NCBI GenBank assembly: GCA_900095095.1
Contig: FMBT01000151.1
Location: forward strand, 1-64,000
Source of the DNA: Fragilariopsis cylindrus CCMP1102
Lineage: Eukaryota > Bacillariophyta > Bacillariophyceae > Bacillariales > Bacillariaceae
Direction: 5' to 3'
DNA length: 64,000 bases
Part shown: positions 1 through 64,000 of the stretch, one piece after another
Position numbering within the stretch: position 1 is the stretch's first letter
Layout of the letters: every line of letters starts with the position of its first letter
Translations under genes and position numbers: made by a program
The notes under the pieces: generated by a model
Database searches by the model: none
What the model was told of the DNA's origin: nothing
Seen by the model: the letters and a program-made list of their open reading frames with translations, nothing else

Positions 1-519
1 AGTGGGAAGACGATGGAGTTTGAAAGAGTTGGGTCCGTAACGGTGTGTGGTATTACTCTCTAAATCCTTAGGCAAATTGATAATATTGATGGCCTCGAAG
101 GGACATTTTTTGACGCAAATACCGCATCCTATATAAAAGAGAAAGTTTAATGGTGTGAAATGGGGGAAAGAAAATATACAGCTGAAACAGTGAGATAATT
201 ATTCCATACAAATAATCATTACCGTACTTCTACAACAATTCGTATTTTACTGTACTACTTGTACAGTGAATTGAAATGATGAATGGATCATAATCACCAT
301 GCACGCACGTACCGATACATAGAGGTTCCGCGATGAATGCCAATTTGCTTTTAGGTCCAACTTCGATACAAAGTTTTCCCAATTGACAACAGGACATGAT
401 TTTTTACACTCTTGATTACATTTCTTAGGTTTGCATTTTTGAGAGTTCACAATGGCGATACGTGTCAATGCGCCATCTCCTTTATCTTTACTGACGGAAC
501 TCTTCTTCTTTGGTGGCAT
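1..519 (-). CDS. ABCE1: ABCE1/RLI1 ribosome-recycling ATPase, N-terminal part (gene continues off the left edge)
   Basis: ABCE1 splits post-termination and stalled ribosomes in the cytosol and has N-terminal iron-sulfur clusters followed by two ABC ATPase domains. Only the ferredoxin-like part is in the window. Exon 1 (519-313) starts with a basic, Ser-rich tail and then reads [17 protein letters not shown] and KSCPVV. Exon 2 (128-1) reads [15 protein letters not shown] and then [15 protein letters not shown], which leads into NBD1. These are the family's cysteine-rich cluster motifs. The intron is 312-129 (GTACGT...TATAG) and joins LCIG to CGIC. After CPVV at about 382 the frame breaks: the conserved LGKLCIEV segment is present but one base out of phase, as if one base were missing. 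In such an essential gene I read this as a sequence error. It is transcribed away from the VTT gene at 988. Confidence 0.93.
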
Positions 520-987
520 ATTGATTTGATGCTATTCTATTCTATTCGACTCGTTTCGTTCTTTGTTGTCTTTTCGTCAAAATTCTCTTCAGGACTATTG
601 CTATCCCTTTTCCATTTGATGGTGTATGAGGGCAACCAACTAACGTTAGGTAACAAGAATACAAGAACAACTTGTAATTTAGAACTTCATTTTCGCCTAC
701 CTAGCTACCGCACTTCCATGTGTACAAAACATGCCACACAAAAATCTAACGCGAATCAATTGAGAGGAGGGTGGGTGGGGGTGGCCCGTCTGTCCTTATG
801 TCAACCATTAATTACGTCAATACCCGCGGGATTAAAAGATACGAATTATTTATGTGAATATTCGTGAAGATAGACGTATTATGAATTACAAGAAGGAGTA
901 GCGCAAGCAGCAATTAAAAGAAAAAAGAATAAAGAATACAGTACAAGAATATACAATATTATATTATGGTATTTCCTTGCCGTAACT
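520..987. other. Divergent intergenic spacer between ABCE1 and the VTT gene
   Basis: This 468-bp spacer must contain both promoters. It is AT-rich towards the right end, with short A-rich runs before 988. A long open frame at 412-867 overlaps the ABCE1 exon on the other strand and looks like a shadow. No TATA box or repeat stands out. Confidence 0.5.
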
Positions 988-2556
988 ATGATTTCTGCTT
1001 CGTCAAGTGATCAACTCTCACCGACAACAAGAATTACCGACTCAACGGCTAACGAGGAGGACGATGATGATGTTGACACTGAAGATCCTCATTGTGCATA
1101 CCTGTAAATCCTAATATCGAAAGACAACATGACAGCGAACAAATTCGGCAGCAGCAGCAGCAGCAGCAACACCAGCATCCCATGCGGAGTTATCCATGTA
1201 GACATATTCTACGGTGGTTGATTGCCATCGGGTTAATGTCGTGTATAATATACGTTGTAATTGATTTCTGTGGAAATCGAACGATTGAATCAAAACTATC
1301 AATGTTCTTAGAATGGGTTCATCGAAATCCTTATAAAGGAATTTTTGCTATAACGTTGTGTTACATAGTCGCAACGATACTTTTTGTTCCTGGTTCTATT
1401 CTAACTTTAGGAGCCGGATATGCCATAGGATCGGCCATTGAAAACACGTTCGGCGGCGTCCTCCTCGCAACAGCTGTAAGTACTGTAATGAAACCCGTAT
1501 GATTGTCTTCTTCTAAACGATAACAATCAGTTAATCCCTGCTACGGTTACAGTATCTATAACTTAACAACATATTGTACAACAATTTGATTTCCCTTGCC
1601 TTGTGGAATATTTATCTACAGTCAGTGTTTATAGGAGCTTCGATTGGTTCGATCTGTTCATTTCTATTGGGTAGATATCTATTTCGTGATTGCGTATTGC
1701 AGCTCGCATTTTCCTATCCGATCTTCCAAGCAATTGAACGGTAAGAAATATTCAAGCCATAATGATACTCGATAGTGGTAGCTTACATATTTAGATTTTG
1801 TATTTTGTATTTTCTTTCAGAATGTATCTGACGGTTCAGTATTTCCTTTCATTTCTGTATCCATATATATATCTTCTAATCAACATTTATTTGCTGATTC
1901 GATTCAAAGAGCCCTTGAAGAAAATGGCCTCAAGATCATGATTCTCTTGCGGCTCAGTCCTCTCATTCCATTCAACGCCTTGGACTACATAAGTGGAGTG
2001 ACAAGTATCTCCTTAAGAGATTATACTGTAGCTTTAGTGGCTCTTTTGCCAGGGCACTTCTATTATGTTTTGTTGGTGCCAGTGCCTCTAGCCTGTCCGA
2101 CGCAACGACTACTTCGACCGGTAAGACGGTCAAGATATTCACCATAGTCTCAGGTATACTATTTGGAGGGTGCGGAGTTTGGATGGCATCGTATTATTCC
2201 AAACAAGAGCTAGATCTGGTAAGTTTACCATTCCTTCCAATTTAAACCGACTGTAAAACTTAATTACGGCATGAGCGACCAAATAATAATTAAATGCTTC
2301 AATGTATGTGTGTGTGCTAAATTGAATACAGGAATACATGTGTCCTCAATGTTATATTTTCAAACCTTCATTCATCTCTATACTTTATGCGATGCGATGC
2401 ATCATTTTTCAACAGATTTTAACAGCTCAATCTGAAATTTATTCTAACATGGATGATGCTGATGCCGATGATAATTACAGTGAAGAGCTACCTTTAACCA
2501 ACGGAGTCATTTCGCACGATGCTGAAGAAAGCATTGAAATCAATCAAGTCGTGTAA
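988..2556 (+). CDS. VTT-domain (TVP38/TMEM64, SNARE-associated Golgi family) membrane protein
   Basis: Members of this family are multi-pass Golgi or ER membrane proteins, some with lipid scramblase activity. The reading is: acidic and Gln-rich N-terminus, a TM near IAIGLMSCIIYVVI, the VTT core with LFVPGSILTLGAGYAIG, then RLSPLIPFNALDYISG, then FVGASASSLSD and a last TM, ending in an acidic cytosolic-type tail. Introns are 1476-1621, 1741-1909 and 2219-2415, all GT-AG with correct phase. Two irregularities exist. The ATG at 988 is one frame away from the core; either an 80-bp intron at 1072-1151 or a one-base deletion joins them (otherwise the first in-frame ATG is 1182). At about 2055, between LLPG and FVGASASS, the frame shifts and one added base restores it. 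The family call is firm; the substrate is unknown. Confidence 0.82.
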
Positions 2557-3203
2557 AAATTATAGTGCCGAGACTCTCGTAACATGACAATAGCTATATA
2601 ATAATAAATATAGGGATAGGTGTCGTTATGTATATATATTATTAACCAGTTGGCGTTAGTATACATCATATATGTACTTATATGCAAGTAAGCAGTATGA
2701 AGATAGATCATGTGTTACTTGATGCAACGAGGTGTTTACACTCAGAAATTAAGAATCTAAGTTACAGTAGTAATAGAAAGTTTTTGCTCGAACAAATATA
2801 CAGATATAATTAATTAATATTCTAATAGTAACAATAAATAAACGAGAAGAAAGAAAAGAAGACTTTCCTGTTTTCATTCTCTGTCTCTCCTCAGTAAAAA
2901 CGCTCGAAAATATAAAGTTGTTTTTTCATACCAAACAACAACCATAATATTTTGATGTATTAAGCCGCATTAAGCCGCGAACAAACGACGGTACCTAACA
3001 ATCCGCTCCACTTTGCGACCAAGTAGTAAGTATATCAAATCTCCGCCATCAACTTCATCGCCATTCTCAAACTCATCATCGTCAAATCATCCTGTCTGGC
3101 ACTGCTGCATTTTGTTCGTAAAGTATGACAAGTCACCGTTATTTCAAATTGAATAAAAAGTCGGAAATTGTGATTTTATGATTGCGCGTGCTGTGTGATG
3201 TGA
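2557..3203. other. Convergent 3' spacer
   Basis: A gene-free stretch between two genes that end towards each other. It is AT-rich, with AATAAATA-type sequence near 2590 and 2833 that could serve as polyadenylation signals on the + strand. I see no further gene or repeat. Confidence 0.5.
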
Positions 3204-4624
3204 TTAGGTGAAAACACCTTCTGACTTCCCTGATGATCCTCTACTTTTACTTTTTGATCTACTTTTACTTTTCGATCGTGATGATGATTTTCTTGTTGCT
3301 GAATCACGTCCTTTATCTCTTTTTGCTTTTTTAGCCTGACGATATTTTCTCATCATCATTGCTCTACGTCGTCTTCGATTTGTAAATAGGATACCAGTAA
3401 ACATGATGAATGATGCTAGTAAGAAACCACCACCAACAACATACTTTAATTTTGTTACCCATGAATGGTATCCACCATTCATACCTGAACTCCATGATTT
3501 AGGAACACCAGATGCACTTGATACACCATTACTACGTTTATTAAAGTTATTATCATCAGTACAAAGTTGGAAGTCGTACGATGTACATGGTGTGGAATAA
3601 TAGATTAGACTTGCAATTAATGAACCTTGATTGCCATCTTCATCTCCACCACCACCATTATTGTTGCCTGATGAGGTTCCGGTACATTGCATGTAATTGC
3701 CCATCATATTATTGATTCCATTTAATGTATCGTATGTTGTACCTGTACGGGACATACAGTATTGATCATTGTAATAACTAAGAGTAAAAGCACCCTCTGA
3801 ACAATCTACACCGACATAACCATTATCACCACCATAACATTCAGGTAGTTCATCATATCCGTAACCATCATCACCACTATTAAAGTTTTGATCGTAACTT
3901 TCTAGATTGTATAGAAATTCGGAAACACCCGTGGTTGTCATAAACTAAAAGAGTAGAGTATAGTAGAATAATAGTATAACATGTATTATGTGAGAAAACT
4001 GAATTGAAATTGAAACTGAAACCAATTTACAAAGAAGAAGAACACAAAGACACAAACAAGAACAAAATATAGGAATAAACTCACCGAACCAACAAATGTA
4101 TTTGTACCACAGGATGAACTACCAGAATCGGATGCATAAACCGAATATGCAACCTGTGGTCGACGACAATTCGCCATCATATACCAATTGTATGTACCAT
4201 CTTCTGATTCATCTTCTAAGCAACCAGCCTCTTCGGAATCATATACCATCCCCCAAACACATCCAAGTACCTCAAATGATAATGTACTACCATCGTACAA
4301 CCAATCACGTGTATATCCATTACCATAAATAGAATAACTATCTTCATAATTAGTATTACCACTATTCCCCCAAGCTTGAACTTGGAGTATACTACTACTG
4401 TTCAGTAATAATAACTGAGAACAAACTAATACTTGGAATATAATATTTTTCATCAGTGACGATGATGACGATGACGATGACGAGGAGGGTAGTAGCATCG
4501 CTATTCTTTCCTTCCTTTTCCTATTATTTGTTTGTTGTGTATTTTTTCTGTTACTGTTACTGCTACTTTTGTCGTTGTCTTTATTATCGATCATTATTTC
4601 ATTCTCCTCTACCAAGGGTATCAT
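3204..4624 (-). CDS. Cysteine-rich type I membrane protein, unknown function
   Basis: I do not recognise a named family. Two exons, 4624-4085 and 3944-3204, are joined by a 140-bp GT-AG intron (4084-3945) in phase 0, giving about 426 aa. The N-terminus is polar and Ser-rich; a typical signal peptide starts only at the internal Met at 4453 ([18 protein letters not shown]...), so the true start may be there. The ectodomain is rich in Gly, Asn, Tyr and paired Cys (for example [32 protein letters not shown]). One TM ([20 protein letters not shown]) is followed by an Arg run and a 50-residue tail of Arg/Lys/Ser repeats ([13 protein letters not shown]). This suggests a surface or endomembrane protein with a basic cytosolic tail. 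The architecture resembles the unrelated gene at 34308. Confidence 0.75.
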
Positions 4625-6397
4625 CGTGTATAAATATCGTGTATGTATCGTATCAATCGTTTCAAATAATCGGTAGGTATGAATAAGTATCTTTTTCTTT
4701 CTTTCTTTCTTTTCGGGTCAACGAATAAATACTATCATCAACTGGTCTATCTTCCTGCCTAGTATGTTGTGGGTTTGGTTTGTTTGTTTTGGGTTGTTGA
4801 TGTTGATTTGCACTTGTGTTAATAAAAGTCCTATCTCCTCATCGATAACAACAACAATACTCAATAGCGAATAATAGATGATACGGTAGATGCTGATAAG
4901 ATAAAATGTCGAAAACGGTTAGATTATTGTCTTTTTCTTTACGTTCATGCACGTGCCAAAGTTTTACAATGGACGAGACCTGCCAATCCATAGTACTAGA
5001 AGTCGTCACATACAAATTGTTTACCTGTGCAAGGCTGTTCGGCTTGTGGCTGACTTGCGCGTCCATAAATAATACTGGTACTCATTGGTGCGTAATACAA
5101 ACGCCTTATTGGCGATCATAACGGATTTATCGAGCATACAAAACTTGAGTATTGCTGTTTTTGTATAAAATTGTACGGTACGTGTCGTATTATATGGCAC
5201 TAAAATAATACATTCGATACAAAAATCGCTCTTGAGCATCCGTACGAAGAACAGAAGAACATTACTCTCAGTGGTCGAATGAGTCGAATATCGAGGACAG
5301 AAAAATCAAACCTACTAGCGTAGCACTACTCCAAGTACGGTAGTAATAAACAGAGTAGTACTAGCAGTAGTACTTTTGTTATTAGACAGCAGGAAGCATC
5401 ATCATCAATCCGGCAGTGGATAGTAGGTTTTGATTTTTTCTACATACATATGGGAAAATCACATTATTTTTAATATACAGTAAAGTGGTGTTTAGCTTGT
5501 GGTGTTAGGTAGAAGTGGTACACTCTAGGTACAGTTAAATTTTTCACTAAATTTGGATTTTATGCTCAGTGTAGTGCATTCTCTATTAGTAGTCAGACCA
5601 ACACTTCCAATGCAACAGAACTGGGAACATTGTCTGACAGAAACTTGGTTACAAATAGGCACAGTAAAAATAACTTAGTGATGTGTGTGTGTGTGTGTGT
5701 GTAGTGTGTGTGTGTGTGTGTGATTGAAGCTTACTATCCATGACACAACACTTACCACAAAACCTCACAATGGGACTCACTATTCAATCCCTAAGAGCAA
5801 GTTTCTCTTTAGTTACTATACAACAACTGCAGTACAAATAAATGATATGATGATTATTCATTGTCTTTGTCATGAATTTATTTCTCTACTTCTTTGCGGT
5901 ACTCCGTAGAAGACTAGAGGATGATTCTATCGTGATAGAGCGGCATAAATGAAAGAAACAGCGAGTGCGGAAACAATGTCAATGAATTTATTTGTTGTGA
6001 ATCATGATAGTCTTTTACTGGACGTATTTAACAGTATTCTCCACGACTACCTGTGGGAAAATTCTAACGGGCGTTTGGGCAGTTCAACTGCTCTAAAATA
6101 CAAAATTATATATGCCCAAAAAAATTACTTAAAGGGTATGACAAATCTACTTAGCGAATTGATTGTGTGCTATTTCTCGCTGTTTCCTATTTATCCTTCC
6201 TCTATCGCTCACAAAATTAAAGAGAAGGTTGAACACGTTCCAGTACGCATTTAGAAAGCGTTCTCGTACAAACTCAGTATTTTCACTCTTCAACAACCGG
6301 TTGTGATCAGCTCATATCCGTACATCAGCTCGTCTCTCGGAACCTTCTGTTACCAAAGCTTAATCTGTTACTTCAGCTACTAAGTTAAATATCGACG
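4625..6397. other. Long intergenic region between divergent genes
   Basis: About 1.8 kb with no supported gene. It contains short open frames on both strands (for example 5949-6254) with no recognisable motif or neighbouring exon support, and a TG microsatellite at 5681-5722. Promoters of the genes at 4624 (-) and 6398 (+) must lie here. Confidence 0.45.
5681..5722. repeat. TG dinucleotide microsatellite
   Basis: A run of TG interrupted once by TAG. It lies in the divergent spacer, 676 bp upstream of the fasciclin-LRR gene. Confidence 0.95.
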
Positions 6398-11090: not shown

Positions 11091-12319
11091 ATGAATACAA
11101 GCATGCCTCGTCGTAGTAGAAAGCGTCCTGATCCAGATGACCAACCCGAAATATCCGAAGATCGCAGTCCCTCTCGCCAGCAGCGTCGGGGGCAATCCTC
11201 GCATCAGAATCAGCAGAAAGGTCGACAAAAACAGCGAAAACAGCAACATAGACAGGACGATGTCCCGAACCCACCAAATCAAGTAGAGGTAAAGCGAGAG
11301 CACCAGCACCAGCAGCATCAGCAGCAATCCTCACACCAGACCAGAATCAGCTGAAAGGACGACAGAAAAAGCGAAAACAGCAACATAGACGGGACGATGT
11401 CCCGAACCCACCAAATCAAGTAGAATTACAGCGAGAGCATCAGCATCAGCAGCATCGGAAGCAATCTTCGCGCCAGAATCAGCAGAAAGGACGACAGAAA
11501 CAGCGAAAACAGCAACCTAGAAAGGATGTTCCGAACCCATCAAATCAAGTAGCAGTCGAAAATGAAAAGAATGTCCTTTGTTGGAATAGTTCGTCCGAGT
11601 ACGTGCCGTTATGCGAGGAAGAAGCTATGGTACGAATGATGATGGAACGAAACGGTCCCCGAGAACGTGGTATGATATTCGAAAAGCCACCGTTTCTTCT
11701 CAAGAAGTTTAAATCGGCTTTACAACAACACGCACAAACTATGTGTCTACCACAAGCATTATCGCTCCGAAGGCATCACATCAAACTATTGAATCCTTAC
11801 AAACGAATGTCTCAACTTCGATTAGGCGAGGAGGATTGTGTTAGGGAGTCAGCACAGATCTTTGAAGTGGCAGTCGAGAAGTTCTTAAAAGAACGTTCGA
11901 TCGAGTACCTAACGGAGGAAGATCAAAAGGAACAGGCGAAAGCAAACCAGGAGCGCCTCACAGCTACTCCAGATTTTGTTTTACCTAGTCCAACATTGTT
12001 GCGAAAGATCCAGAACGGAGTACTAGAGGAACGAAAAATTCATTGGATTGAAGCAAAGATGTATTTTGGAGCATCTAGCATTCCTCATGGATCTAAAGGT
12101 GCTGTTGGATCTTTAATGAAAACGGCACAACGCTACGTCAATCAGTTTGGCAATGGAGCGTTTGTGTTCATGATGGGATGCGGAGACAAACTAGCTGGAG
12201 AATTGAACGAAATCGGTATCTCGGTTCTAGATTGTTCCGGAAACACAGTCTCTCTCGAAGAAGTTCACGAGCACCAACGTACTTGGTGTGCCAACCAGAA
12301 GGGAGAGATATTACCATGA
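11091..12319 (+). CDS. CDIN1: CDIN1 (C15orf41)-like TPD-motif nuclease
   Basis: CDIN1 is a predicted PD-(D/E)XK-type nuclease that in humans partners codanin-1 and is mutated in congenital dyserythropoietic anaemia I. The C-terminal half here carries the family signature: TPDFVLPSPT, then IHWIEAKMYFG, with the D and E-x-K spacing of a nuclease core, then YVNQFGNGAFVFMMG. The N-terminal region is Gln/Arg/His-rich and made of tandem copies of a roughly 130-bp unit (11190-11530). The N-terminal frame from the ATG at 11091 stops at 11354 and the conserved part is in another frame. A five-base duplication (accagaccag, about 11335-11344) or a one-base loss explains this; a 56-bp GT-AG intron (11289-11344) is also formally possible. 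Without the N-terminus the first in-frame ATG is at about 11627. About 407-409 aa. Confidence 0.8.
11190..11530 (+). repeat. Tandem repeat coding a Gln/His/Arg-rich N-terminus
   Basis: About two and a half diverged copies of a roughly 130-bp unit encoding GRQKQRKQQ, RDDVPNPPNQVE and Q/H-rich segments, inside the CDIN1-like gene. The apparent frame break of that gene lies in the junction between copies. Confidence 0.85.
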
Positions 12320-19724: not shown

Positions 19725-20770
19725 ACGCTCTAGGACGCAAATAGTACCCCGATTGCCTTTGGTGATGCGAAAGTCGTGATCTAAATACAGCACATCAAAA
19801 TACCCTTTGGGAGGTCTCTTTATGTCAAAATGGAAAACATTTTCACAGATACTATCACCATCCGAATTCTCAACGTCGATTGGCATATTGAGTCCAAGAA
19901 ATAACTTAAGAAAGTATCGATATATCCAACCAAAATAGGATCGTTCTTTGTCGGCTTTCCCGTAGGCTTTGGCAAAAGTTTTACCCCACAATTTGAGCAT
20001 CTTCGTATCATTGTTAACGGCGAGAGATGGAACGAGAGTACCTCCAGTAAATGTACACATTATACGGTTATTTACACCATCGCTTTCTCGGCAGCTTCCC
20101 CTATTGATCAATGTGGCCCCTAGGTCACCATCGGGCGTGTGAATAGTAATATCAACGATAATATTATAGCTAAATGATTTTGCTGCGGCATCCGTGCCGT
20201 CGTTATTATCCTTGCTTTCTGTCATAATGCTTGTTGTATTCGATAGTGGACGTATTGGGTTTCGTATAGATCTCACCGTACAAACAAGATCATTGGGTTG
20301 AAAGATATTGAAAGATAATCGACCGAGAGTGTATTGGACAATTTCTTTTTGATTTATATCACAATTGATTGGTTTGACTCTACCGGGGAAGGTTGGGGCA
20401 GTTAGAGTGTAGTATTCACCATGAAACAAATCAAGCCGAGCACAATCTTTAGGATATGGATTCAGCTTGGCTAGTTCATTCACAACTTTATCAACTTCCT
20501 TAGCTTTTGTGCAGCCATTGTATTTACATAGCACAGATCTTAGTTTGAGTTTCAGATTATTACGGGTAGTAGAATTAGAATCGTTGTTCTCGATTTGTTG
20601 AACATGTAGGACTTCCTGCTCGTACTCCTGAGACGGAGACGAAGCAGCTGTATTCACTTCCTCAATATTGCTTGCACTTGCACTTGCGCTTGTAACCCGA
20701 TTCTTCTTCTTCGTCTCTTTCGCATTTAAACCAAGAATCGCTTTGGAGAGATTGATCGAGCCAAGCCCAT
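19707..20770 (-). CDS. PAP/fibrillin (plastid lipid-associated) family protein
   Basis: Fibrillins are lipid-binding proteins of plastoglobules and thylakoids. The frame at 20657-19707 has the family's two ends: AKEVDKVVNELAKLNPYPKDC followed by LFHGEYYTLTAPTFPGR, and near the C-terminus GYFDVLYLDHDFRITKGNRGTICVLER. The family call rests on these. The frame is open back to about 20780 but has no ATG before the middle of the protein. An ATG at 20770 (MGLARSI...) lies one frame away, and one added base between about 20768 and 20730 would join it to SKAILGLNAKETKKKNRV. With that start no plastid signal peptide is visible, so the 5' end may include an unseen exon. Asn/Asp/Ser-rich insertion near the middle. 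Confidence 0.72.
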
Positions 20771-23958: not shown

Positions 23959-23990
<32 letters not shown>

Positions 23991-24795: not shown

Positions 24796-26472
24796 ATGGT
24801 GCCCCTTCTTGATGCTCCATTAATTACATACAACAACAACGCTAATCATGAAATAACAGCAGTCCCAGGACCAATCGCTTCCATGTATAGTTTCCTAACT
24901 ATGAAAAAGAATTGCACAGAGGAGCCTTCGCGATTTCGTAAGTACAAATTAAAAACAGTTCTCCACGCTGATGATGGTTCGAACGGTCGAAAAATAAAAC
25001 GTCTTTTTTTCTACTCATCTCACACACGTTCTCTTTCGCTCCTCCATCTCTATATCTCACACAGAACACTATGTTGGGCCTAATGGCATGCCAGATACCG
25101 TGACCGACTCATTTGACGAAAGCGAAAACCAAGGCAAAAGCGAAACCCGAGCAAAGTACAAAAAGCAGTTAGGTTTACGAACCTTCAACACGATGACTGT
25201 TGAGAATAATAATCATGGCAGTTTAGTAGAAGAGAGAGAAACACAAAATCGTGACAATAATTCAACAACAAGCACACAATCAGCGACATTAAACTTTCAC
25301 ATTCCTTCTCATAATTCTCATCATAATCATCACAAGAATCTTTGTTCCTACAATACAATTACTCGCCTCAATATTACTATCTGTTCTGATTACGAAGACA
25401 AGGTAAACTTGAATATTAACAACAACAGCAACAGCAACTGCGATATCAACAACAATAGTAACAGCAGTATGTCTACCTCCAAGATTTACATTAGTGATAA
25501 TCCTTGGGAGACTCGTTGGGAAGAAACGCAATCTCCTAACGCCAACGCCAACGAGGATAGACGATTCTCAACAGCATCACCAGAGTTGTTTGAGACCGTC
25601 GTCACGAATGTGAATGAGAGAAGAATTACAATTCCATCAGACCCTTGGGAATTAGACAAACTCTTCGATGTTGGTAGTAGTACAGTAGTAGCAGCCGACG
25701 ACGACGAGACTGGACCAACTACCGTGGAAATATTCGCTCTAAGCGACAAGAAAAACGAAACATCCTTATTCTTTGTCGACTCTGAAACTGACACTTCTGT
25801 GGATGGTTTCTGGATGGAGGATAAGTTGAAATATTTGGCTATCGAATTCGATATCGATGAAGAGAACTCTGCGTGTTCTAGTAAGGATGGTCTCTTTGCT
25901 ACTCCCCACGATGACGATGTAGATGACTACGACGACGAGGAGGAGGAGATGATGATGATGATGTAGACGACGATGATGATGACGTTGAAGATGATGATTA
26001 TGATGATGATGACAAGAGTCATAGTTACGCTTCGTCTCTTGAAGATACTTTTGAAAACTTCGAGACCATATCTATGTTAACAGAAGAAAGTTTGGGTGAG
26101 AAGTCTACAACTAGCGAGGAAATGGACGTGGACACTAACGTGCATAGTATGAACTTATATACCATTGTACCATCGGATGACGTCTCTGTAATTACAGAAG
26201 ATGGCAGCTTTCTCGTTCTTCAACCTTTTTCTGTTGATGAAGGTGAGGATGTATACTTTGATCAAGAATCACAGGACTCTCACGTCGTTGATATCATGTT
26301 TCTTTTGAATTTGAATCAAAATGATGAGAAGGAAGTCGATGACGACGACGAAGAAGAAGAAGAGAAAGGAAATCAATTACTTCTTGATTTTAGCAATAAT
26401 GATAATGGAATGTTTTTCACCCCTCAGTTCCCTGTTGGAATCTGGAACGTCACTTATGAGGAAGCGTGGTAA
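24796..26472 (+). CDS. Acidic low-complexity protein, unknown function
   Basis: I do not recognise the family. Exon 1 (24796-24937) and exon 2 (25065-26472) are joined by a 127-bp GT-AG intron, giving SRF-QHYVGPNGMPD. The protein (about 516 aa) is rich in Asn, Ser, Asp and Glu. Two short similar segments, ISDNPWETRWEE and IPSDPWELDKLFD, may be a repeated linear motif. The frame from 25065 runs into a stop at 25964 in a GAG/GAT repeat, but the next frame continues as DDDVEDDDYDDDDKSHSYASSLEDTFENF and on to 26472 with similar composition. One missing base in the repeat (about 25935-25965) explains this. No TM or signal peptide is visible. The assignment as one gene is inference from composition. 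Confidence 0.62.
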
Positions 26473-47384: not shown

Positions 47385-50300
47385 ATGAGTGATAATACGA
47401 ACACCAATGATGCCGCTACTATCACTGCTGCTACCGATTCTGCTGCCGATTCTATTGTGGCTGTTGCTGTTGGCAACAATAATAACGACGCTAATAGTAG
47501 CATCGATACCATAAATCGTTCATGGGGAAGTACGATTAGAAGTATATTATTATCAGCGATTGCAAATGAATCAACTACAACTACAACTACAAGTGCATGT
47601 AGTACAACTACCACCACCAGCATTAACACTAATGCTAATAATGAAAATGAAAGTACTAATATGACTAATATGATTACTACCGATATCAGTAATGGTGATA
47701 CTACTACTACTAATAATAATAATACTGCTACTAACAACAACAATAGCAACAACAACAACAGCAACGACAACAACAATAGCAATAACTCTGATATGGGTCT
47801 TCTTACTGATATTATAAATCGTCTTGAAAATATTTCCGGTACAGTCTTTGAGGAAGCGGAACGTGTCATCGATGAACACAGCAGTACGAATGTAAATGCA
47901 AATGCAAATGTAAATACAGCAAGCAGTCAAAGAAGAAGTTCTACTAGTAGTAGTCCAACAGAAGCGGAATCAAGACGACGAGCATATAATGTTGCTAGTA
48001 GACTTCAAGAAGGAGAAATGATGACAATACCAACCGCATCCACATTTTCATCTTCCTCCATTGACAATGGGAACGACGAATATGAAGATGAAGACGACAA
48101 CAACAACGAAGACGCAGACGACGACGAATACGACGACGACGATGATACCATTGCTGGTAATATTGCTGCTGCTGCTGCTGAATTTGCTGCCGGTGATGCT
48201 GCTGCTGTTGTTTACGACGGCTATGTTGAAGGAGAAGACGACGAAGTTGAAGTTACTTCGTTGTCGTCATCATCATCATCATCATCAACAACATCGTATC
48301 CACCAATGTCAAGCATAGCACCGTCAAAAAATCCATTCGGCAATGCTACAACTACTACTACAGCTACACCTGTTACTACAGTTACTACTACGTCAGGCAA
48401 TGATAACGACAACAATGATAACGACAACAATGACAAAGAAAATGACGTCAACAAGACCACTTCGACCTTACCTTCCGGTAATAATGGAATGTCTTGTATA
48501 CATCCTCCTCCTCGTGCCATTAAGAGAGAAGCATCCTTAACATTAGATCCCTATATTTCTCCTCCTCCTCCTGCGAGTATTAATAAGAGAGACGCATCAT
48601 CAGCATCATCATCGAGTGCGAATGCTAATGTTAATGTTAATCGGGATGCCTTCCTCCTTCCTCATCCTCGTCATTCTCCCATCATTAAGAGAGAAGAATC
48701 CCGTCCATTGAGTGCAAACGTCGACAAAGTCCTAGAGATTCTTCATAGTAGTGGTAAGGATGATGAGGATGACAAAGATGAAGATGGAGCTGAAGATAAC
48801 AATGATGATGACACGATCATTATGAAGATGAAGATGCCATCCCCTATACAATTGAAACGAAAATTTGATCAAGAAACTCTTCGTCATTATTACGAGAACA
48901 ACAAAAACAACAATAATAGTTCTGGTGCTGGTGCTGGTGCACGTCGGGTATTAAAGTACCATAATAATGAAAATATTAATCATGAATCGTTACCTATCGA
49001 ACAAGGTGACGAAGAAAATAAAAACAATTATGATGATGAAAAGGATGTCCATCATGGTTCTTTTGCTTCTTTTCAAGACTTAAACAACAACGACAATATG
49101 AGTATTGAGTCCGTCGCTTCTTCTTCTGCACCATCGTTGCTGGCTACTGAGTCCGTCGCTTCTTCTATTCGGGACGACAAGAGAGCAGAACAGGACGACA
49201 ATATAGCAGAACAGGACGACAAGAGAGCAGAGATGAAATCCGTCGCTTCTTCTTCTGATAAGGATTGGAAATCGATCCGTTCCGAAGTTAAGGCTATCGT
49301 TGAAAATCGAAACAAGAAAAAGAAGTTGTCAGAGTCAGGACCAGAGTCAAAGTCAAAAATGATTCCACCAAAATCATCGCACTCATTACCATCACTACCA
49401 CTACCACTACGTCAAAAAATGAAAGAGATTGTATTCCATACAGAACAGTTAGGATTATTATTGGACAAGAAAAGAATTAATATTAATAATACTAAGAATG
49501 AGGAAGAAAAAGAAGAAGTGTTTGTTGTTTGTGGTGTTGCAAATAATCAGAATCATACATTCAAAGGCGAAGAAGGAATTTCTTTTGGTGATATATTAAT
49601 TTCTATTGGAAACATTGATGTTAGGAATACGAAAAAAGCTCTATCTAATAAAGATATTGAAAGGATTATTTCTTCCACGGCAAGACCAATAATAATAAAA
49701 CTTTTAACTTCCTCCTCCTCCGCAGCAGCAGACAACAACAATACCAAGAGGCTTCCGCTTCCGCGTTTCAACTGTGATATCTGTAACTCTCCATGGGGGG
49801 GGGAAAGCGGACGTTGTAACAATGTTTTAGCTTGTGGAATAAGATGCAAGAGGAGAGCAGAAGAACAGAAAAAAAATGACAAGATGCAGAAGGTGCGAGA
49901 AGAAAAGAAAAGAGAGACAGCAGAAAGGAAAAGAAAGGAAACAGCTCAGGCCTATGCAAGAGAAAGGAAAAGAAAGGAAACAGCTCAGGCCTATGCAAGA
50001 AATAATAGAGATCAACCGGCACCTAGTGAATCAGCTGTTCGTCCGTAAGTTATTACTACAATTGTACACGTATCTTGTTTCTTTTTCACAAACATACCAG
50101 AGTGTATTGTTTGGTTACATTCAATATTGTTACTCACATACATACATTTTACATGCTGTCACAAAATTTCATTTATTTATCTTTAAAGGAACAATCAGGA
50201 TGTTTTATTGGCCGAGGAAAGCCAGTTCGGAATCATAATGGAAATCGTAAGATGGCAGGTCTAATTGTTCAGTACAGACGGCAATATAATGAATCTAAAA

Positions 50301-54005: not shown

Positions 54006-55584
54006 TCAAACCCACCAGGATCTTCTTGCCCAGGCCCCGGAGGTTCGTCTTGCGACGATGTTTGCGATCCTGCTTGCTTCTCTTCTCCGAAACTCCGAAA
54101 GTGTGTCTTCCAGGAGTCGAATGTGTTCCCCATAAGAGGCTTCCAAAGCTTCGTCTCCGGCAATGACAGCGGCTTCTATAGTTTCATCCGCCCTTTTTTT
54201 TTGGACGCCTGGATGGGCATTTAGGGCCTCGAGCGCTGCATCGAATTCGTTCTCGTACTCAAACGACTTGCCAAGCCAGTAACCGAGACCGTAGGACGCC
54301 AGGAATTCTTCGCCTCGCAAGACCGGTTTGGTCGTCACGTAAACCATGAGCGGGGCAGGCCCGAACCCGCACATCACCACGTTGAAGACGCTTCGGTTGT
54401 TGTCGTCGGAACGATCGTACCTTCTCTCTTCCGCTGTTGTCGTTCCGGTGCTCGATTGGAGGTAGTCAAACGCCAATTGCGCAGCGGACATCTCAATCTC
54501 GTTTGCCTTCTCCGCGAAACAATAGTCGTTTTTTCCCCGACCGCTTCGTGTTTGTTGTTGTTGTTCCTTTTGTAGTTCTCTGGAGGCGGCGACTACCGGC
54601 GAAAAGTCCGCAAAGGACGCATCGTTGACGTAGTGGGCGAGAAATAGCCCTTGGTCGGCATGATGGATTGCGGGTGGTTCTGGAGGTTCTCTTTTGGTTG
54701 GAAAGCAAGACCGCTCCGGGTTGACATCGAAGACATAGGTATCAGAGGGATCGACCATGGCAAACGAAAAATCGTCCTGGGTTTCTCCAAAGACCCCCGA
54801 CTCGTCCTCGAAGTATACCTGGTCACTGGTCCCGATGATTCCGTTGCCATTACTGGTAGTTCTTGTTGCTGGTGACCGTCGGTTCGTTTTGGTGGTCGTC
54901 GTTGTTGGTGTTTTGTTGTAGGAAGGATCCGTACACTTTGTCCGATCGTTCGTGAATCTTTGGTGGACACCTGCCGTGCGCATAGCCAAGTGCGTGAATC
55001 CTTGTTGTGGAACGAATGAATGTGTGTGTGCACGTGGGATGTTCGTTGGATCGTGTATGGACCCGAGTGGTGGTGTGGGCAAAGGCAATAGAGAACAATT
55101 CGTCAGTAGTAGCTAGGTGCAAGGTAAACAATCGAAGAGATAGCACAAGATGAATTCATTCGACACTATAATACGTAGTATACATGCCATCGTAACCAAC
55201 ATCGCAACAGCACGACAAAAAAATAGTCCAAAAAGACGTACGGGTAAAAAGACACGATCTCGCCTTTCGAAAAGTCTCGTTTCGCGACCAATCCTTTCCC
55301 TTCCACCACTCCCTCGGAGGTGACCTCCACGCCCTCGAGGATGTCCCGAAAGGTAAATTTCCATCGCTTGGACGATTCTAGAAATGTTGGATCCTGTAAA
55401 ATGTCATAGATTTCGAGTAGATCGGAAATATGCTTGGTCGATGAGGGCCGGAAACGATTAGCGAGTCCGAGGCGAACACTATTCCAATTGGTGGCGATCT
55501 CCGGAACGAAAAGGATTCGGCGTGTTGTAATTGCCGCTGTGTCCAAACGAAACTACAAAGGAGCAACCGAGTGAACCTTGTCAT
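54006..55584 (-). CDS. SET-domain protein (putative lysine methyltransferase)
   Basis: SET enzymes methylate lysines of histones or other proteins. Exon 1 (55584-55242) holds GVEVTSEGVVEGKGLVAKRDFSKGEIVSFYP; a 241-bp GT-AG intron joins it to exon 2 (55000-54006), which begins IHALGYAHGRCPPK. Later parts are VDPSDTYVFDVNPERSCF, LAHYVNDASFAD (the NH-x-C-like core, here HYVNDAS) and VTTKPVLRGEEFLASYGLGYWLG (motif GEE-x-x-x-SYG), followed by a helical Ala/Glu-rich tail. Two frame breaks occur: near 55550, between the ATG and TAAITTRRILFV (one base missing), and at about 54860-54920 in a Thr/Asn-rich stretch (one extra or two missing). The first residues (MTRFTRLLLCSFVW) look like a signal peptide, but the break makes the N-terminus uncertain. 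About 445 aa. Confidence 0.78.
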
Positions 55585-56071: not shown

Positions 56072-57403
56072 ATGAGAAAAGAAGGTAACTACTACGACAA
56101 CTGTTCCATCGACTCCTCCCCTCATACTACTAGCAGTAATATGGATCATTTAAGCACCAGTACTTGTGTATATCAGGCAATGATGGAATCTGGATTGATA
56201 TCGAGAATGGAGAACTTAAGGTATGACGTTAATTGCCGGTAGAGACTCAGGTGATATCATTGGACTTAGTGCACGTAGTTGTAGCAATGAACACATGGGA
56301 AGCTTAATGCCCTCTCTAAAAGAATACTCATCGACCCTACGAGTTGTTGATCTACACAATTATCGATACATTAGAAACCTTCATGAATCTATCGTTCTAC
56401 AGAGGTTGATACTTTCACGTTGTGATCGTCTTGAAAAATTACCAGATTCTATTGGAAAACTTCATAACTTGATTGAGGTATGTATGTGAAAACTTTTTGG
56501 TTCGAATTTGTGTGCATCATTGAAACACGTATACTACTCATCGTCGTATCTATCATCTTTTTTGTTTTGTCCATCCATTCGTTTTTAGCTTGATCTGTTT
56601 GATTCGTTCCAGGTATCAGAGCTTCCAGAAGGTATCTCAGGATTACAAAGGTAAGTCATCTAGGCGCTATTATTTTGTTGATCAGTCTTTGATATACAGA
56701 GATAGAACTCCGACTGACACATTGTTCTCTCTCTATCTCTCATTCGAATATATCTTCCACACACAGTCTGAAACGATTACGTATTGGAGGATCATCTGGT
56801 ATTGCCAATAAAAGCCTACAACGTCTACCAGAATCTTTTGGCGAGTTAACCTCTCTCGAAGATCTTCAGCTTGACAAATGTAAAGCATTGAAGAGTCTCC
56901 CCGCCTCTTTTGGTGGACTTAAAAACTTGACCAGATTATCATTACGAGAATGTAAAGCGTTGAAGTTTCTACCACCGTCTATCGTACGATGTACAAATCT
57001 GATAGAACTTAATTTGCTCAAATGTGTCTCTTTGAAGTATCTTCCACCAGATTTTGGATCCCTTGTACTACTCGAAGACTTGAACATGTTTAAATGTAAG
57101 ACCGTGAAGGAAGTTCCTCACAGTATCGGTTGTTGTGGATTTTTAGCATTTATTGATTTAAGGAAGTGTAAGAATCTTTCCAACCTACCCGATGAAATTG
57201 GAACTCTTAGTCGGTTGCGGATGCTCCATATCAGTGACTGCACTGGTATTGTTGAAATTCCTGATCTCATCGGAGAATTACCCAAGTTGGAGGTATTTCA
57301 ATTTGAGAATTGTACTTCATTGAAATCTATCCCATCATCATGTTACAAATTTCTTGATGATACAATGAAATCAAGGATGTTGGGACACGAATTCAACGAA
57401 TGA
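56072..57403 (+). CDS. Leucine-rich repeat protein, intracellular type
   Basis: Four exons (56072-56084, 56177-56477, 56589-56650, 56767-57403) with GT-AG introns give about 337 aa. The start MRKEGNDGIWIDIENGELKV is followed by VVDLHNYRYIRNLHESIV and then about ten repeats of roughly 23-24 residues, such as LEKLPDSIGKLHNLIEL, LQRLPESFGELTSLEDLQLDKC and LKSLPASFGGLKNLTRLSLREC. The L-x-x-L-P-x-S-I/F-G-x-L pattern with a C at the strand end is that of cytosolic plant-type LRRs (Ras-group or NBS-LRR-like). No NB-ARC, TIR or kinase domain, signal peptide or TM is present. At 56221-56223 the frame shifts between GELKV and MTLIAG; one added base restores it. The tiny first exon (13 nt) is inferred from phase and could be wrong. 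Confidence 0.8.
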
Positions 57404-57991
57404 TCTTGATTTTGAATCTATTTTCATATTCCATATGAACTCTCTATTCCATATTACTTTTTCCTTTTTCCCTTTTTTGTTTCCTCTGCACATATAAATC
57501 TGCGCATAAACAACTTTTAAATCTCCGCACTGTACAGTGCTGTACTGTACTATGGAGTTAGCTAAGTTAAACATTAGTCTATATTGTTGTTATATAAAGT
57601 CTCTATTAGTGCTAGTTTTAAAAGTATGCTGTGTGAAAGCATCGGGCCAGAACACGTGGTGAATATCGCAATAGTGTATATATTTTAAAAATTATTACAG
57701 TATGAAAGTCTAGTTATGGTTGGAATATTATCATTTTCTGAAATACACTCCCCCTGAAGGTCTGTGTAGCACATTCTCTCTATTTTACAATATATTTAAG
57801 CTATAACTGCTCAAGTTTAGTCTGAATAGTAGCTAGGCACAATATTAATCAATCATGCTTCTGCTACCATTGATATTGATGTTTCTTTTGCTTTGATTCC
57901 TTCCCCAGCCTCGGCGTCAGACCATTATCACTATCAGCCAACTCTGTAGTGAGCTCTTGAGTCTCACAGAGAGTAGATATACACGAACTTT
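57404..57991. other. Convergent spacer
   Basis: 588 bp between LRR and FTR1 stops; contains a CTGTACAGTGCTGTACTGTAC repeat near 57530. No gene recognised. Confidence 0.5.
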
Positions 57992-58965
57992 TCACGCATC
58001 GGGAACGTATTCGATACCAAGTTCCTCGTTAGTAATTTCTTCCCGCTCATCGGTAGTGACTTCAGATAAAGCAGATGACGGTTTTACGCATTTTTTGTAT
58101 TTAATATAGTGCAAAAGAAGGCAAGATGCTATCCAAACCCAGAAGCAGCACATCTGTAGTACAGTTCTTGTATCGCTGTATCCAAAGGGTTTGAAGATGG
58201 TCATCGGTAGACGATCGATAGACCAGAAGTCTCCCTCGATGGTATAGATGGTTGGAGTTTTACCGAGAACCTTTTCAAAGTTATTACAGCCACCGGTGAA
58301 TAGTCCAGTAGAAAGGAGAATGAAAAGGCCAACAGTAAATATCGTCAAAGCTTTGGTACTTTTGAAATGTCGGTTTGCATAGTAAATTAGGACAACAATG
58401 AATCCACCAACAAGTAATCCGATAACGGCTGAAAGAGGTATGGCAACGATACCTTCTCCGTAAGGAAAAATGGAATCAAAAAGACACCACATTCAGCAAC
58501 TTCACGCCAAATATTCCAAGCTATGTTGAAACGGATAGACTTAAGGGTTATCCCGTGCGAGTCTATCGACTCGTCAATTGTTTCACCGTTCTTGATCTTC
58601 TTTACTTGAGCCTTACTGTAGTATAGGCCAAAAAACTTGGGCATTTTTAATGACAACTGAAGAAGGCATATCGCAGCAACGATCTTCGATACCCCCTCAA
58701 TGATCTTAGCAGTTCTTGGATCGAAATCTCGAGACATGATTGCTAACGGTACTGCAACTGCAGCACAAATGACAACCGCTACCAATGCGGCCAGAAGAGA
58801 TGATACGGTCACCGCTCGTAGAGCTTGGTTTTGCGTAATCGGTGAATTGTCCCAATTAGTCCGCAGAATGACAGTTCTGTACTCACCAATGATAATTCCA
58901 CCCTCCAGAGTTTCTCTGGTAAAGATTGTTATTACAGCGAAATCGAGTAGGGAAGGGGCCGACAT
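57992..58965 (-). CDS. FTR1: FTR1-like high-affinity iron permease
   Basis: FTR1 moves ferric iron across the plasma membrane, in fungi together with a multicopper oxidase. Two R-E-x-x-E iron motifs are present: [15 protein letters not shown] in the first helix and [16 protein letters not shown] in the fourth. They are separated by helices ([39 protein letters not shown]). The frame breaks just after IPFF: the following [21 protein letters not shown] and the last TMs are one base out, and adding one T to the T5 run (plus-strand aaaaa at 58466-58470) restores them. About 324 aa with about seven TMs and an acidic C-terminal tail ([17 protein letters not shown]). No ferroxidase gene lies next to it in the window. 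Iron limitation is a known diatom stress, so iron-dependent expression is likely but not shown here. Confidence 0.88.
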
Positions 58966-59891
58966 TCTGTTTTGTGGTTGTTTCTATTATCAAGGGAGGA
59001 ATGATTAACTTTCCCGGTGCGTGTTCTATCAATTTGTTTCGTCCCGTTTAGTAGTATGCAAATGCGATGGTTGTCAAAGGCAAATATTACATAAATCTTC
59101 TCTTCCTTCTACACTTCACCCAGCAATCCAAGCTAATTCATATAACACTCTCGCAATGAATGCTTGCTTTTGCCGACATAGCATACAGTATATTATAATA
59201 TTATTATGTATCATGCACATGTGGGACTGATGTATCATGGCATGTCACAACTTCGAAAAAACACGATTACCGGTACAGAAAAATACTTGTTCACTTATTC
59301 TTCAGTTTTTTCATTTGCATTTGTGGTTAGTTAGCACGTGCATTATTAATAATCTCGGCCACATAGGACGCGTGCATATATATTATTATTCGTTGTGTAA
59401 TTTAATTTCCGATCGAGGGCTGTGTGGGAACTTATTTGACGCGTGGGCACAAAACAACAATAAATAATGCTAGTACTTGAAGTAGGCTACTTCGAAGTAC
59501 AGTACTTACGTAGGGAGTGTGTATAAAAACCACTTCGCTCGAGTAAATAAAAATTGTCACATTTTTATCCACGTATGAACAGAAATGTTCGGAAAAATAA
59601 TATTATTTTTCGTAGAAAGGACGGACGTGATTAAATAGAAATCTAAATAAAATAACATACTGTACACTCCTTCACGGTGATACGTTACACTCTTCGATTT
59701 CAGCATAAGTACTCGTATTACATATTATATTCATTGTCCCGACTCTGCTTTCAAATAAAGCTTATTATTTGTATCGTTTTCATTCTTTAGGAACGATACC
59801 ATTCGAAAATAGTTGTACAAGATTACTAGCACAGAAATTGCTGCTTTTTAATTAATAGGGAGGGAAATTAAAAAAAAGGTAGAAGTAAAAA
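58966..59891. other. Divergent intergenic region
   Basis: 926 bp between FTR1 (-) and BCAS2 (+). AT-rich, with short frames (59021-59467) I do not support. Likely holds the FTR1 promoter; no recognisable iron-response element seen. Confidence 0.45.
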
Positions 59892-60569
59892 ATGAATGAC
59901 GGCAACAACGATGGACAACCGGTCGTTTTGCTTGACTCACTTCCCTATGTGGAAACGGTTCATGAAGATTATGAGGAGTATGCTCTAGCTTTAATCGAGG
60001 AGGAGATGAAGGCGAGTGTACCACGATCTCTCAAAAAGATGCAACCGTTGAATTTCCGAACATCGATGATGCAAAAAGAGTACGAATCATTGATAGTTAA
60101 AGATGGTGGTGTTGAGGGGACATTGATATCAGTACAACGTCCGAAAGAACAACTTCTTTCATTTCAACCAAAGAAAATTGTAAAACCGACTACGATCGAA
60201 GAATGGAATGATAGTAATGCAATTGAACAGGCGAAGTCACAGTTTGAATCGGAAAGGATTCGTAGTCAAGTAATAGAAGTTGAAAAGGAAGAGGGGGTTG
60301 CAAACTGGAAGGATCATATTACCAGCCTTGATAAGTTGGTATCATTCTGGACAAAATCATTACAAAAACAGGCAGAAATTGTTGAGGAAATTAACTTTCA
60401 ACGACAACAGTCACAGGAAAAACAAACTGGACCAGAATTAGAACGATTAAATCAAGATTATCAACAAGCATTATATCGAAGGAATCAATTGGAACATACT
60501 ATCGAGGGATTGAAAAGGGAAAGTAATAATAATACTAGTACTAATAATGATCGGAAACGGAAAGCTTGA
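59892..60569 (+). CDS. BCAS2: BCAS2/SPF27, PRP19-complex splicing factor
   Basis: BCAS2 (Spf27, Snt309-related) is a core subunit of the PRP19/NTC complex that activates the spliceosome, in the nucleus. Single-exon frame of 225 aa, the family's usual length. The N-terminus LLDSLPYVETVHEDYEEYALALIEEEMKA matches the conserved D-x-L-P-Y start and the helix with EEE-M. Then LNFRTSMMQKEYESL and AKSQFESERIRSQVIEVE, and a long C-terminal coiled coil (NWKDHITSLDKLVSFW onward to LEHTIEGLKRE). The tail is Asn/Thr-rich then basic (DRKRKA). No frame problems. Confidence 0.93.
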   Translation: MNDGNNDGQPVVLLDSLPYVETVHEDYEEYALALIEEEMKASVPRSLKKMQPLNFRTSMMQKEYESLIVKDGGVEGTLISVQRPKEQLLSFQPKKIVKPTTIEEWNDSNAIEQAKSQFESERIRSQVIEVEKEEGVANWKDHITSLDKLVSFWTKSLQKQAEIVEEINFQRQQSQEKQTGPELERLNQDYQQALYRRNQLEHTIEGLKRESNNNTSTNNDRKRKA

Positions 60570-60763
60570 TGGAATTTGAAAGCAAATACAACAAGAATAT
60601 TTATAGATAATAGCTTGAAATATGCTCATTAATTCTTCTCAAGAGTTTCGATATTTTAAATGAAGGGAAAATAAAAGGAAGTATCAACTACAAATTATGC
60701 TAGCAGTAACGTCAGAAGTATTAACACGACTCCTCTACTACAATATGTTTTTCAACTATCTAT

Positions 60764-63700
60764 TTATTCTTCCAAAATAGAAAGCATTTGTTGCAGAATA
60801 GGTTCCATTCTCATTCGTGTTCTATACTGTGCTTGATTTAGTAGTATTTTGGTGGATTTAACAACATCTTCACCAAGCACATTCGATTCGGTTTCGTTTA
60901 ATGAATATTCCAAGGAAGATTCGGTCTCAGACGTCGGAAGATATCTCAAGCATGCTATCATATCATCTTTCAATAATCCTTTGAATTCCTCTGAAACATC
61001 AGCCATAGCAACCGATAGTTTCTTCGTCTTTCGTATGCCCCATCCGTAGGCAGTACATACGGTGGAACACATTCGGAATACGGCAAAAATCGGTAAGATA
61101 TAATTAGGAAGAGCGGAACCCACTGTTTTAGGACCAGTAGATACAGACGAAAAATTTTCACGAGCTATCTTCAATCGCATCAAGACTTGGTCCTGGATAA
61201 TCTTAATTGATTCTTGCTCTCGCTGCTCCATTGAATCCTCGTCCATCTTTGGCATTCCGGCGTTGACTACAGCCAATACACGGCACAAGCTCAAAAATAC
61301 ATGCAACAACTCGCGACATCCAATCACATAGTTACTATCGCCATCTTCTCTTCCGTTGTGGAAAAATTCGGAAGCTTCCAAAATAGAGTTTAGGAGACTT
61401 TGAGTTCTTTTTTCCAGAACAGGACTTGGTTTGACAACCTTGCCTTTTTTGGGTCCTTTCATTGCATCGATGCACAAGGCAGCTCGGATCAGTAGCCCAT
61501 GAATATGGCCTCGTCTCAATGTCGCTTGTACCATACTATTTTTGCTCTCTATATTAGGTTTCAACAAAATTGAATTTTGGTTCAAAATTGATTTATCACG
61601 ATTATCAGACAAATCATCGTCGTCGGCAAAGTTACAACGACCGGTACACGAAACAACGCTGAAGGCAGCGTAAGGATTATGTATTTCAGCCACCATTTGA
61701 ATAACCCGCTCAATGTCCTCATTTCCTCCTACGATACCTTGTGCTATTCCAATACCACCCTTCAGTATTGGATCTTCATCATAATCCATCCTCGGTACTG
61801 CAGATGCTAACAAGGGGGCAGCGTCTAATATCAACCCTTTGGAATAGAGAGATGTAAGGCTTTGATTCATCTTTTGTCTTTGAAAGACCATAAATTCATC
61901 AGCCTTCGTCAAAATACCAGTATTCATAGCCCTACCAGCGAAGTCACCACAATCACGAGCTGTTCCTCCCTGAAAGCGTAAGAGTGCCGTACAAATATCG
62001 ATAGCTTCATTGTACAAACCTCCCTCAAAGAGGTATGGAAAGATCGCAAAGCTACAGGAATCGAGTTGGATGTGCTTCAGACCGATCGTCTGATAGAGTT
62101 CCCAGGAACGAGTGGTTGCATTTAATTGATGAAACACTTCTATGGCTAAAAATTTTAGATATGCATTGTCTGGTGAATGTTGGATGCCTGATTCTAAAAG
62201 AACAGCCGAAATAAATGTTGCATCACCACAATTGTTTCGAGAATCTTTTGTAAGAGTAGCTGTTGAACTGCCAATAAAACCAAATCGTCGCCAGGTTTGA
62301 GCTCCCTTTGCGACTCCTCACCTTCGTTTGATGAGGTCAATGTCAAAGTTGCCTGCCATTCTCTAATTATCTCTACCCAATCGGGAAGATATTTATCTGC
62401 GAGATCGATATTTGCGGACAACAGTTTATGGGTTAACTTAAGAGCAAAGATGTATGCTCTAAGTTTCGCTTGACGTTCCTTATTACTACTAGAAGAAGTA
62501 GTATTTCCAGACGTCAGATTGGTTCTGCGCAAAGACTCAGCAAACTCTAGCAGCGAGACTGTGACGTCTTTATTTACATCATCGTTTTCGTTACAAATTA
62601 AAATGCTAAGATAATGATCAAGATCCGTGAAGGTGCAGTTGGCACGATGTGCAAATGTTTCGGCGTATTGGCGAATGGCATCCCCAAGGGCCCTTATGGC
62701 GTCGTCTGACGCATCCTGTCGTAAACGTCCAGTTGCTATTTCAACGATCATTAAATGGGGACCCCGTAGCGGATAACGCGAGTCTACTCTATCCTTGATA
62801 ATATTTTCCACTAATGCCTGCGTCAAACCAAGATCGTTGTTGCTTCCCGACATAGAGCACTCTAGATGCGCCTTCCAGCAAGACCAGTCATCCGGACTCG
62901 TCTGTAAAAGATTTTCGTATAAGAAACGTGCATCATCGAAACGATCCAACTTTTTCAATACTTCAGCAGTTTGTAGTTTTATCTGACTTTGTGACATAGT
63001 AACTCCAAACTCTAACGGACCTCCAACAGCATTGTCGGTATTGGGATCTGTGCAATCGGTTATAGGAATATTTTCCAAGATCTGGAGCATTTCATCCCAT
63101 TTTGATTGTCGTTCTAATGCTCGTAAGCACAACATACTGATTTCTTTCGACCGCTGGTTCCGTTCATCTTCTTGTTTGAGTAGACGCATTCCCATCGATT
63201 CCGCCAATCGAGGCAATATCGATGATCGTTGGTCGTCTTCCGGTAACCATTCTAGTTGCCATAGGGCCGATTGACAAGCCCACGCGGTGGCGAACATTAG
63301 GGATGACTCGTCTTGCAAAGAAACGGCAATTCGGGCCAGCTGTAGGGAGACGGTTTGCATATGCGATAGGACATGTATTTCCAGTCTCGTTCTAGATTCG
63401 GTGCTCAATCTCGATGGTGCCGCGAGAAAAGAGAGTCCAAATTTGAAGGTTTTGGTCAGTGCTAAGTCTGTCGGCACAGCATCAGCAGCTAGAGCGTACA
63501 TCTGAAAGGCCGTCAGTGGTAAGTTTAGACTTTTGAGACTTATCGCTAGCGTGGCGAGAGTCGTTTCGTCCGTTATGATATCAGTCGGCTGATTCTCAGC
63601 AGAAAGTGAAGACAAAATATCTATTTTCTCCGGTAGAGATGGTAGAATATCCAATCGATCTATCAAGTCCGATTGTGGTTGAATTTCATTCGTGGGTCGT

Positions 63701-64000
63701 TGTTGTTGTTGTTGTTGTTTCGGTGCCGGTTTCTTTTTTCCTTTCTTTCCCTTTTTCCCAGACACAGTCGCCGGTTCTACTTTGGGTGCTGCGGATGGAA
63801 ACTTTAATAATGACGAAGAGGATTCATCCACACTTTGTTGTTCCAGCATTGATTGAAGCTCAAAAAAGGAAGAAGGTGAAGCCGTCCTTCGTATTAGTAC
63901 TTTGTTGAGTGTGATCAAAGCTAGATGTTTTTGTCCTGTTTTCGTATACGAGTGCGCCAAGAGAGCACTCCCCAAAACATTGGAATCGGGAAGTACTACT
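60764..64000 (-). CDS. NAA25: NAA25/MDM20, auxiliary subunit of N-terminal acetyltransferase B (5' end outside window)
   Basis: NatB acetylates protein N-termini starting Met-Asp/Glu/Asn/Gln; NAA25 is its TPR-like ribosome-binding scaffold. The part in the window (about 1080 aa) is helical throughout: GSALLAHSYTKTGQKHLALITL, DARFLYENLLQTSPDDWSCWKAHLE, YPLRGPHLMIVEIA (R-G-P motif of the family), DKYLPDWVEIIREW, then SPDNAYLKFLAIEVFHQLNATTRSWELYQTIGLKHIQLDSCSF, which is the best family match. A Lys-rich linker (GKKGKKGKKKPAPK plus polyQ) is inserted early. At about 62250-62256 the frame breaks between AVQQLLL and TKDSRNNCGDATFISAVLL; one added base restores it. It ends at 60764, converging with BCAS2 (194 bp between stops). 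The N-terminus lies beyond position 64000. Confidence 0.85.

Follow-up and report, generated by a model that had tools for sequence, protein, structure and literature searches.

The window analysed here is the whole stretch of bases 1-64000 (64,000 nucleotides) of contig FMBT01000151.1 (C317, 93,613 bp in total) from the Fragilariopsis cylindrus assembly GCA_900095095.1. An earlier note, made from the letters alone, listed 14 frame breaks in its genes, twelve of them (two tentatively) restored by adding one base, and ascribed them to long-read assembly and not to pseudogenes. When the genome (67.88 Mb, 818 contigs) was searched with bases 1-600 of the window, the region proved to be present a second time, on contig C341 (285,301 bp) of the same assembly, and positions 156001 to 236000 of that contig were compared with the window. 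The sites and the matching blocks are as follows.

382..383, minus strand: ABCE1 gene, frame break, one base short; identical in C341
2055..2056, plus strand: VTT-domain gene, frame break; C341 one base longer
11341..11345, plus strand: TPD/CDIN1-like gene; second tandem copy of CCAGA in the window, single in C341
13648..13649, plus strand: CTF18-like gene, frame break in the low-complexity N-terminus; C341 one base longer
20730..20768, minus strand: fibrillin gene, 5' end; contigs identical
25949..25950, plus strand: gene of an acidic protein, frame break; stop-to-stop frame of 491 residues in C341
36467..36468, minus strand: gene of unknown function; one T longer in C341, whose frame there is still one short
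50210..50211, plus strand: DUF6824 gene, frame break at the domain start; two paralogues one base longer
54857 and 54885, minus strand: window two bases short relative to C341, inside the block inverted between the contigs
55498..55499, minus strand: "SET" gene, break; C341 has an additional C at 55498 and its open frame joins there
56220..56221, plus strand: LRR gene, frame break; C341 intact here, yet broken at the equivalent of 57138
57921 and 57995, minus strand: two more bases absent from the window inside the C341 FTR1 frame, from the C341 comparison
58460..58461, minus strand: FTR1-like gene, frame break; stop-to-stop frame of 407 residues in C341
62230..62256, minus strand: NAA25 gene, frame break inside NatB_MDM20; identical in C341
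Blocks shared by C317 and C341: window 1-9119, 9140-46188, 51685-53518, 53917-55715 (inverted in C341) and 56006-64000

The window also carries an FTO-like gene at 21997-23646 (Pfam FTO_NTD, E 3.9e-61; FTO_CTD, E 6.4e-32); the FTO family is known for RNA m6A demethylation.

Results

The two contigs are collinear in the five blocks at 96.7-99.8% identity (BLAST rows below 200 bits were left out). The 5.5 kb segment at window 46189-51684 has no counterpart in C341 156001-236000. It holds an open frame of 919 aa and the DUF6824 gene, and parts of it are repeated on C337, C412, C185, C89 and C675 at 89-94%. The inverted block of 1.8 kb corresponds to C341 215438-217268. A long inverted repeat around it was sought in the window and none was found; near the block there is only a short self-complementary stretch (55870-55917) within a repeat (55753-55917) that is present on many contigs.

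Thirteen of the listed sites have a counterpart in C341. At eight of them C341 is longer by one or two bases, at one it has one copy fewer of a 5-bp repeat, and at the remaining four the contigs are identical.

At 2055, 13648, 25949, 55498, 56220 and 58460 a comparison of the frames side by side shows the extra base in C341, where the frame is open, an intact second copy being what long-read error would leave; for ABCE1 and NAA25 the second copy is not intact. The one-base breaks proposed for the VTT, CTF18-like, acidic-protein, LRR and FTR1-like genes are thereby confirmed. The stop-to-stop frame of C341 extends over 154 residues in the VTT gene, 237 in the CTF18-like gene and 142 in the LRR gene. 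The profile matches improve as well: Pfam VTT passes from E 2.4e-9 in the window to 1.8e-11 in C341, LRR_14 from 0.0011 to 8.3e-6, and FTR1 from profile positions 2-153 (E 1.4e-4) to 2-215 (E 1.1e-10). It had been noted that no second damage is seen in these genes; this does not hold for the FTR1-like gene, in which the window is also short at 57921 and 57995 relative to the C341 frame.

The break in the "SET" gene is real, and its place is 55498 by the C341 frame and not 55550 as first assigned; C341 also has 12 additional bases at 55542, and its frame of 164 residues is cut by the end of the locus. The name itself finds no confirmation, the gene having no Pfam match whatever. Pfam profiles gave zero matches for the acidic protein and the gene at 36466 too, and the N-terminus of CTF18 gave just one weak, sub-threshold and unrelated match. 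Because Pfam is uninformative for these four, the evidence for their breaks comes from C341 and from codon usage.

The DUF6824 break at 50210 is supported by two paralogues, on C675 (94%) and C192 (86%), each one base longer than the window; the extra base differs in letter between them. The Pfam DUF6824 profile matches the window from about 50207 on.

The second copy does not rescue ABCE1 or NAA25. In ABCE1, residues 4-37 of the solved structure 5lzv match one frame (E 6.3e-10) and residues 32-60 the next (E 1.2e-5), so that the loss of one base at about 382 is borne out by the switch of frame. In NAA25, Pfam NatB_MDM20 positions 1-194 fall in one frame and 202-326 in the next, and the split match substantiates the break placed at 62250-62256. 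For both genes and for the fibrillin 5' end, C317 and C341 are the same, and the genome search gave these two copies only. The fibrillin match to Pfam is confined to the last 28 profile positions and the start codon is ambiguous; a frame break there is possible.

Several sites depart in detail from a simple loss of one base. The length difference in the TPD/CDIN1-like gene, listed at 11340 as a possible lost base, is real, and consists of the extra copy of the 5-bp repeat in the window; the C341 frame is open for 413 aa. At 36467 the codon model described below gives "two missing or one extra" for the window and "one missing" for C341, so the break listed at 36466-36480 is real and the window probably lost two bases. 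At 54860-54920 the window does have two bases fewer than C341, as had been guessed; its own frame is also open across 54857-54885, and either frame could be true. In the VTT gene at 1072-1151 the contigs are identical apart from a 3-bp repeat difference at 1168. Overall, eight of the 14 listed breaks are as originally described, four are real with different details, and two (fibrillin and VTT 1072-1151) stay possible.

C341 has damage of its own. It is one base short at the position corresponding to 57138, although the window has an intact LRR frame there, and a 7-bp repeat at 52041 breaks its Rcd1-like gene, the frame of which is continuous in the window. Between the ABCE1 and VTT genes (equivalent of window 855-986), C341 is nine bases short at eight places within 130 bp; this patch could be either a poor local consensus or true divergence.

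Over 57,796 aligned bases, C317 and C341 show 134 SNPs, and at 74 places one of them is a single base shorter than the other. The shorter one is the window in 53 cases and C341 in 21 (sign test, p 0.00026). In coding regions the window is short 15 times and C341 twice (p 0.0023), as against 38 and 19 outside them (p 0.016); the coding regions were drawn roughly by hand for this count, omitting 57921 and including 58980, which precedes the likely FTR1 start. Only 17 of the 74 differences are coding, though 64% of what was aligned is coding sequence; this is rarer than uniform error predicts, and we presume that many of the non-coding differences are, probably, true allelic variants.

The earlier note pointed to homopolymers and simple repeats at several sites, and these explain a part of the losses. 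A concentration in homopolymers, which is typical of long-read error although not required by it, was not observed: of the 53 bases lost from the window, 37 are either single (23) or one of two like bases (14), and the remaining 16 belong to runs of 3 to 5.

A codon model, for which other stretches served as training material, marks 57% of the window as coding, with eight same-strand switches of frame; C341 has five. Chance as the source of this signal was rejected, since the reversed window gives 0.4% and no switches. Three of the eight switches are listed breaks (acidic protein, 36466 and NAA25), so the model detects just three of the 14 listed sites; the switch at 54092 is ambiguous. Inspection of the frames suggests that the other four, at 6773, 32650, 50684 and 52213, are introns. 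It might be proposed on these grounds that some of the listed breaks are likewise unrecognised introns or wrong starts and no damage at all, which could apply to the fibrillin 5' end and to VTT 1072-1151. However, there is no space for an intron at ABCE1, NAA25, VTT 2055, LRR, FTR1 and DUF6824, to judge from homologous residues, from the second copy or from paralogues, and we give this proposal practically no weight.

It could also be supposed that the sequence is correct as it stands and that the genes work, the sites being passed by -1 frameshifting or RNA editing. The similarity to known proteins picks up immediately in the new frame, and the ABCE1 and NAA25 breaks are the same in both contigs, as recoding would have it. 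An in-frame slippery heptamer of the form X_XXY_YYZ was sought from -24 to +12 nt around ten breaks (the frame for DUF6824 and the position for fibrillin being set by hand) and was found at none, and the ten sequence contexts have no common pattern. Moreover, C341 or a paralogue carries the intact frame in its DNA at seven sites. A literature search by title brought up nothing relevant on programmed frameshifting in diatoms. We therefore consider recoding at these sites highly improbable. In bacteria, the frameshift in the release-factor 2 gene is a means of autoregulation, and it is tempting to imagine the same for ABCE1, a ribosome-recycling factor: if its break were real and read by -1 recoding, it could serve autoregulation. 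By this analogy the idea is attractive; that it is true of ABCE1 seems to us scarcely credible.

Breaks of the same kind occur elsewhere in the assembly. A genome profile search gave 22 matches to the chaperonin profile PF00118 and 35 to the HSP70 profile PF00012. Among them, breaks that leave no space for an intron were found on C347, C655, C451 and C693; three of these contigs are of 36.0, 50.3 and 37.7 kb, and one break lies in the first 371 bases of a contig of 416 kb. Read by eye, the chaperonin gene on C655 changes frame four times, each time with the same sign, and the first of these changes is supported by the profile match itself; the genome search found no second copy of the gene. 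The HSP70 gene on C693 differs in the opposite direction, with a T that C612 (97% identical) lacks, and a further possible HSP70 break on C70 is, by its coordinates, of the opposite sign.

The comparison of C347 (36 kb) with C90 (1,265,703 bp) over 4,004 columns gave no SNPs and four one-base losses, all in C347; over a further 9,943 columns there were again no SNPs, and one loss on each side. Differences in length without SNPs are what long-read error would produce. C498 against C221 gave one loss in the short contig and three in the long one, with 43 SNPs, and C317 64001-74000 against C341 gave losses of 4 and 1 with 2 SNPs (in these last two comparisons and in the 9,943 columns, BLAST pieces of less than 400 bases were left out). 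Two comparisons clearly show a bias of losses to the short contig; in others there is none, or it runs the other way. Lopsided losses, as expected of long-read consensus error, are thus observed, with C693, C498/C221 and a part of C347/C90 as exceptions.

In the PF11999 ice-binding family the genome has 53 matches, one of them identical over 234 residues to PDB 6a8k, which we take to be an F. cylindrus protein. Copies with broken frames lie on C445, C590, C202 and C307, and some of them may be true pseudogenes.

Without selection, about one quarter of coding SNPs is expected to be synonymous. In all 42 segments that the codon model marks as coding there are 28 SNPs, of which 12 (a modestly higher share) are synonymous, 16 non-synonymous and none nonsense; four of the 16 sit in one messy repeat at 13450-13462. 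The count for 29 of the 42 segments had been 12 synonymous, 9 non-synonymous and no nonsense (21 SNPs), and the full count weakens the argument for constraint drawn from it.

These figures bear on the possibility that the haplotype of the window consists of real loss-of-function alleles, one chromosome copy having decayed and the other being intact. Diverged haplotypes have been published for F. cylindrus (PMC5634323), and the contigs do differ as alleles may, by the 134 SNPs, the 5.5 kb segment of the window alone and the inverted block; the excess of non-synonymous over synonymous SNPs (16 to 12) is also in the spirit of decay. Nonetheless, the absence of nonsense changes among the 28 coding SNPs argues against a decayed copy, and the ratio of synonymous to non-synonymous SNPs does so weakly. 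Decay would leave no working copy of ABCE1 or of NAA25, C341 is itself broken at 57138 and 52041, and lost bases also separate the SNP-free contigs C347 and C90. Decay of one haplotype appears to us very unlikely.

Discussion

As judged from the sequences compared here, we believe with high confidence that the genome is that of a diploid polar diatom assembled from PacBio long reads, that errors left in the consensus account for the breaks, and that the genes are most likely intact in the organism. This interpretation is favoured because C341 holds the extra base at most comparable sites and the losses are lopsided, and because C341 has breaks of its own where the window is intact and similar breaks occur on other contigs. 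The claim of the earlier note that one-base assembly deletions and not pseudogenes are involved is supported by the same C341 bases and lopsided losses, and by the length differences free of SNPs. Counter-evidence comes from the breaks in ABCE1 and NAA25, which both contigs share, from the rarity of one-base differences in coding sequence, from the breaks and losses of opposite direction on other contigs, and from the small number of listed sites that the codon model detects.

Single bases would have been lost from the consensus of C317 both within homopolymers and outside them, and each base dropped within a gene would appear as a frame break. Lower coverage of the haplotype, or polishing with the reads of both haplotypes, may have caused the drops; the breaks shared by both contigs in ABCE1 and NAA25 could go back to shared reads or to shared polishing.

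The published description of the F. cylindrus PacBio assembly is in line with such a course of events. RSII reads, FALCON and Quiver were used, and short-read polishing is nowhere described; the primary contigs number 745 and total 59.7 Mb, the longest being of 1.26 Mb, and the 288 alternate contigs total 9.1 Mb, with none above 127 kb (PMC5634323). The window very probably belongs to this assembly, and C317, which is short enough for an alternate contig, has the look of one. On one scaffold, consensus reads cover the alternate contigs about half as deeply as the primary ones (2.51 versus 4.59), and the authors note that polishing may have erased differences between the copies (PMC5634323). 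They also report residual indels relative to Sanger fosmids: among 13 of them, four with 0-3 SNPs have 0, 1, 2 and 14 indels in 32-43 kb, and the other nine, with 20-387 SNPs, have 7-135 indels; the Sanger assembly is recommended for detailed genetic studies (PMC5634323).

Anyone who takes gene models directly from the present assembly would obtain truncated versions of essential genes, among them ABCE1, NAA25 and a chaperonin subunit, and a comparison of alleles based on it would yield false loss-of-function alleles. C317 and C341 taken together serve as an internal control, which reveals the faulty contig at most sites. This is an ordinary artefact; it warns against gene models from such contigs and says nothing new on the biology of the organism.

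Comparison with known systems

The closest case is the F. cylindrus assembly study itself, which shares with our observations the length errors relative to Sanger fosmids and the division into primary and alternate contigs; the difference is that its counts are given per fosmid, without the direction of the error or the genes broken (PMC5634323). Kastor, in the part of its description that concerns this point, likewise treats long-read frameshifts that give intact genes the look of pseudogenes (PMC12007338). The genomes considered in that part are small; here the genome is that of a diploid eukaryote, and the second contig provides the internal control.
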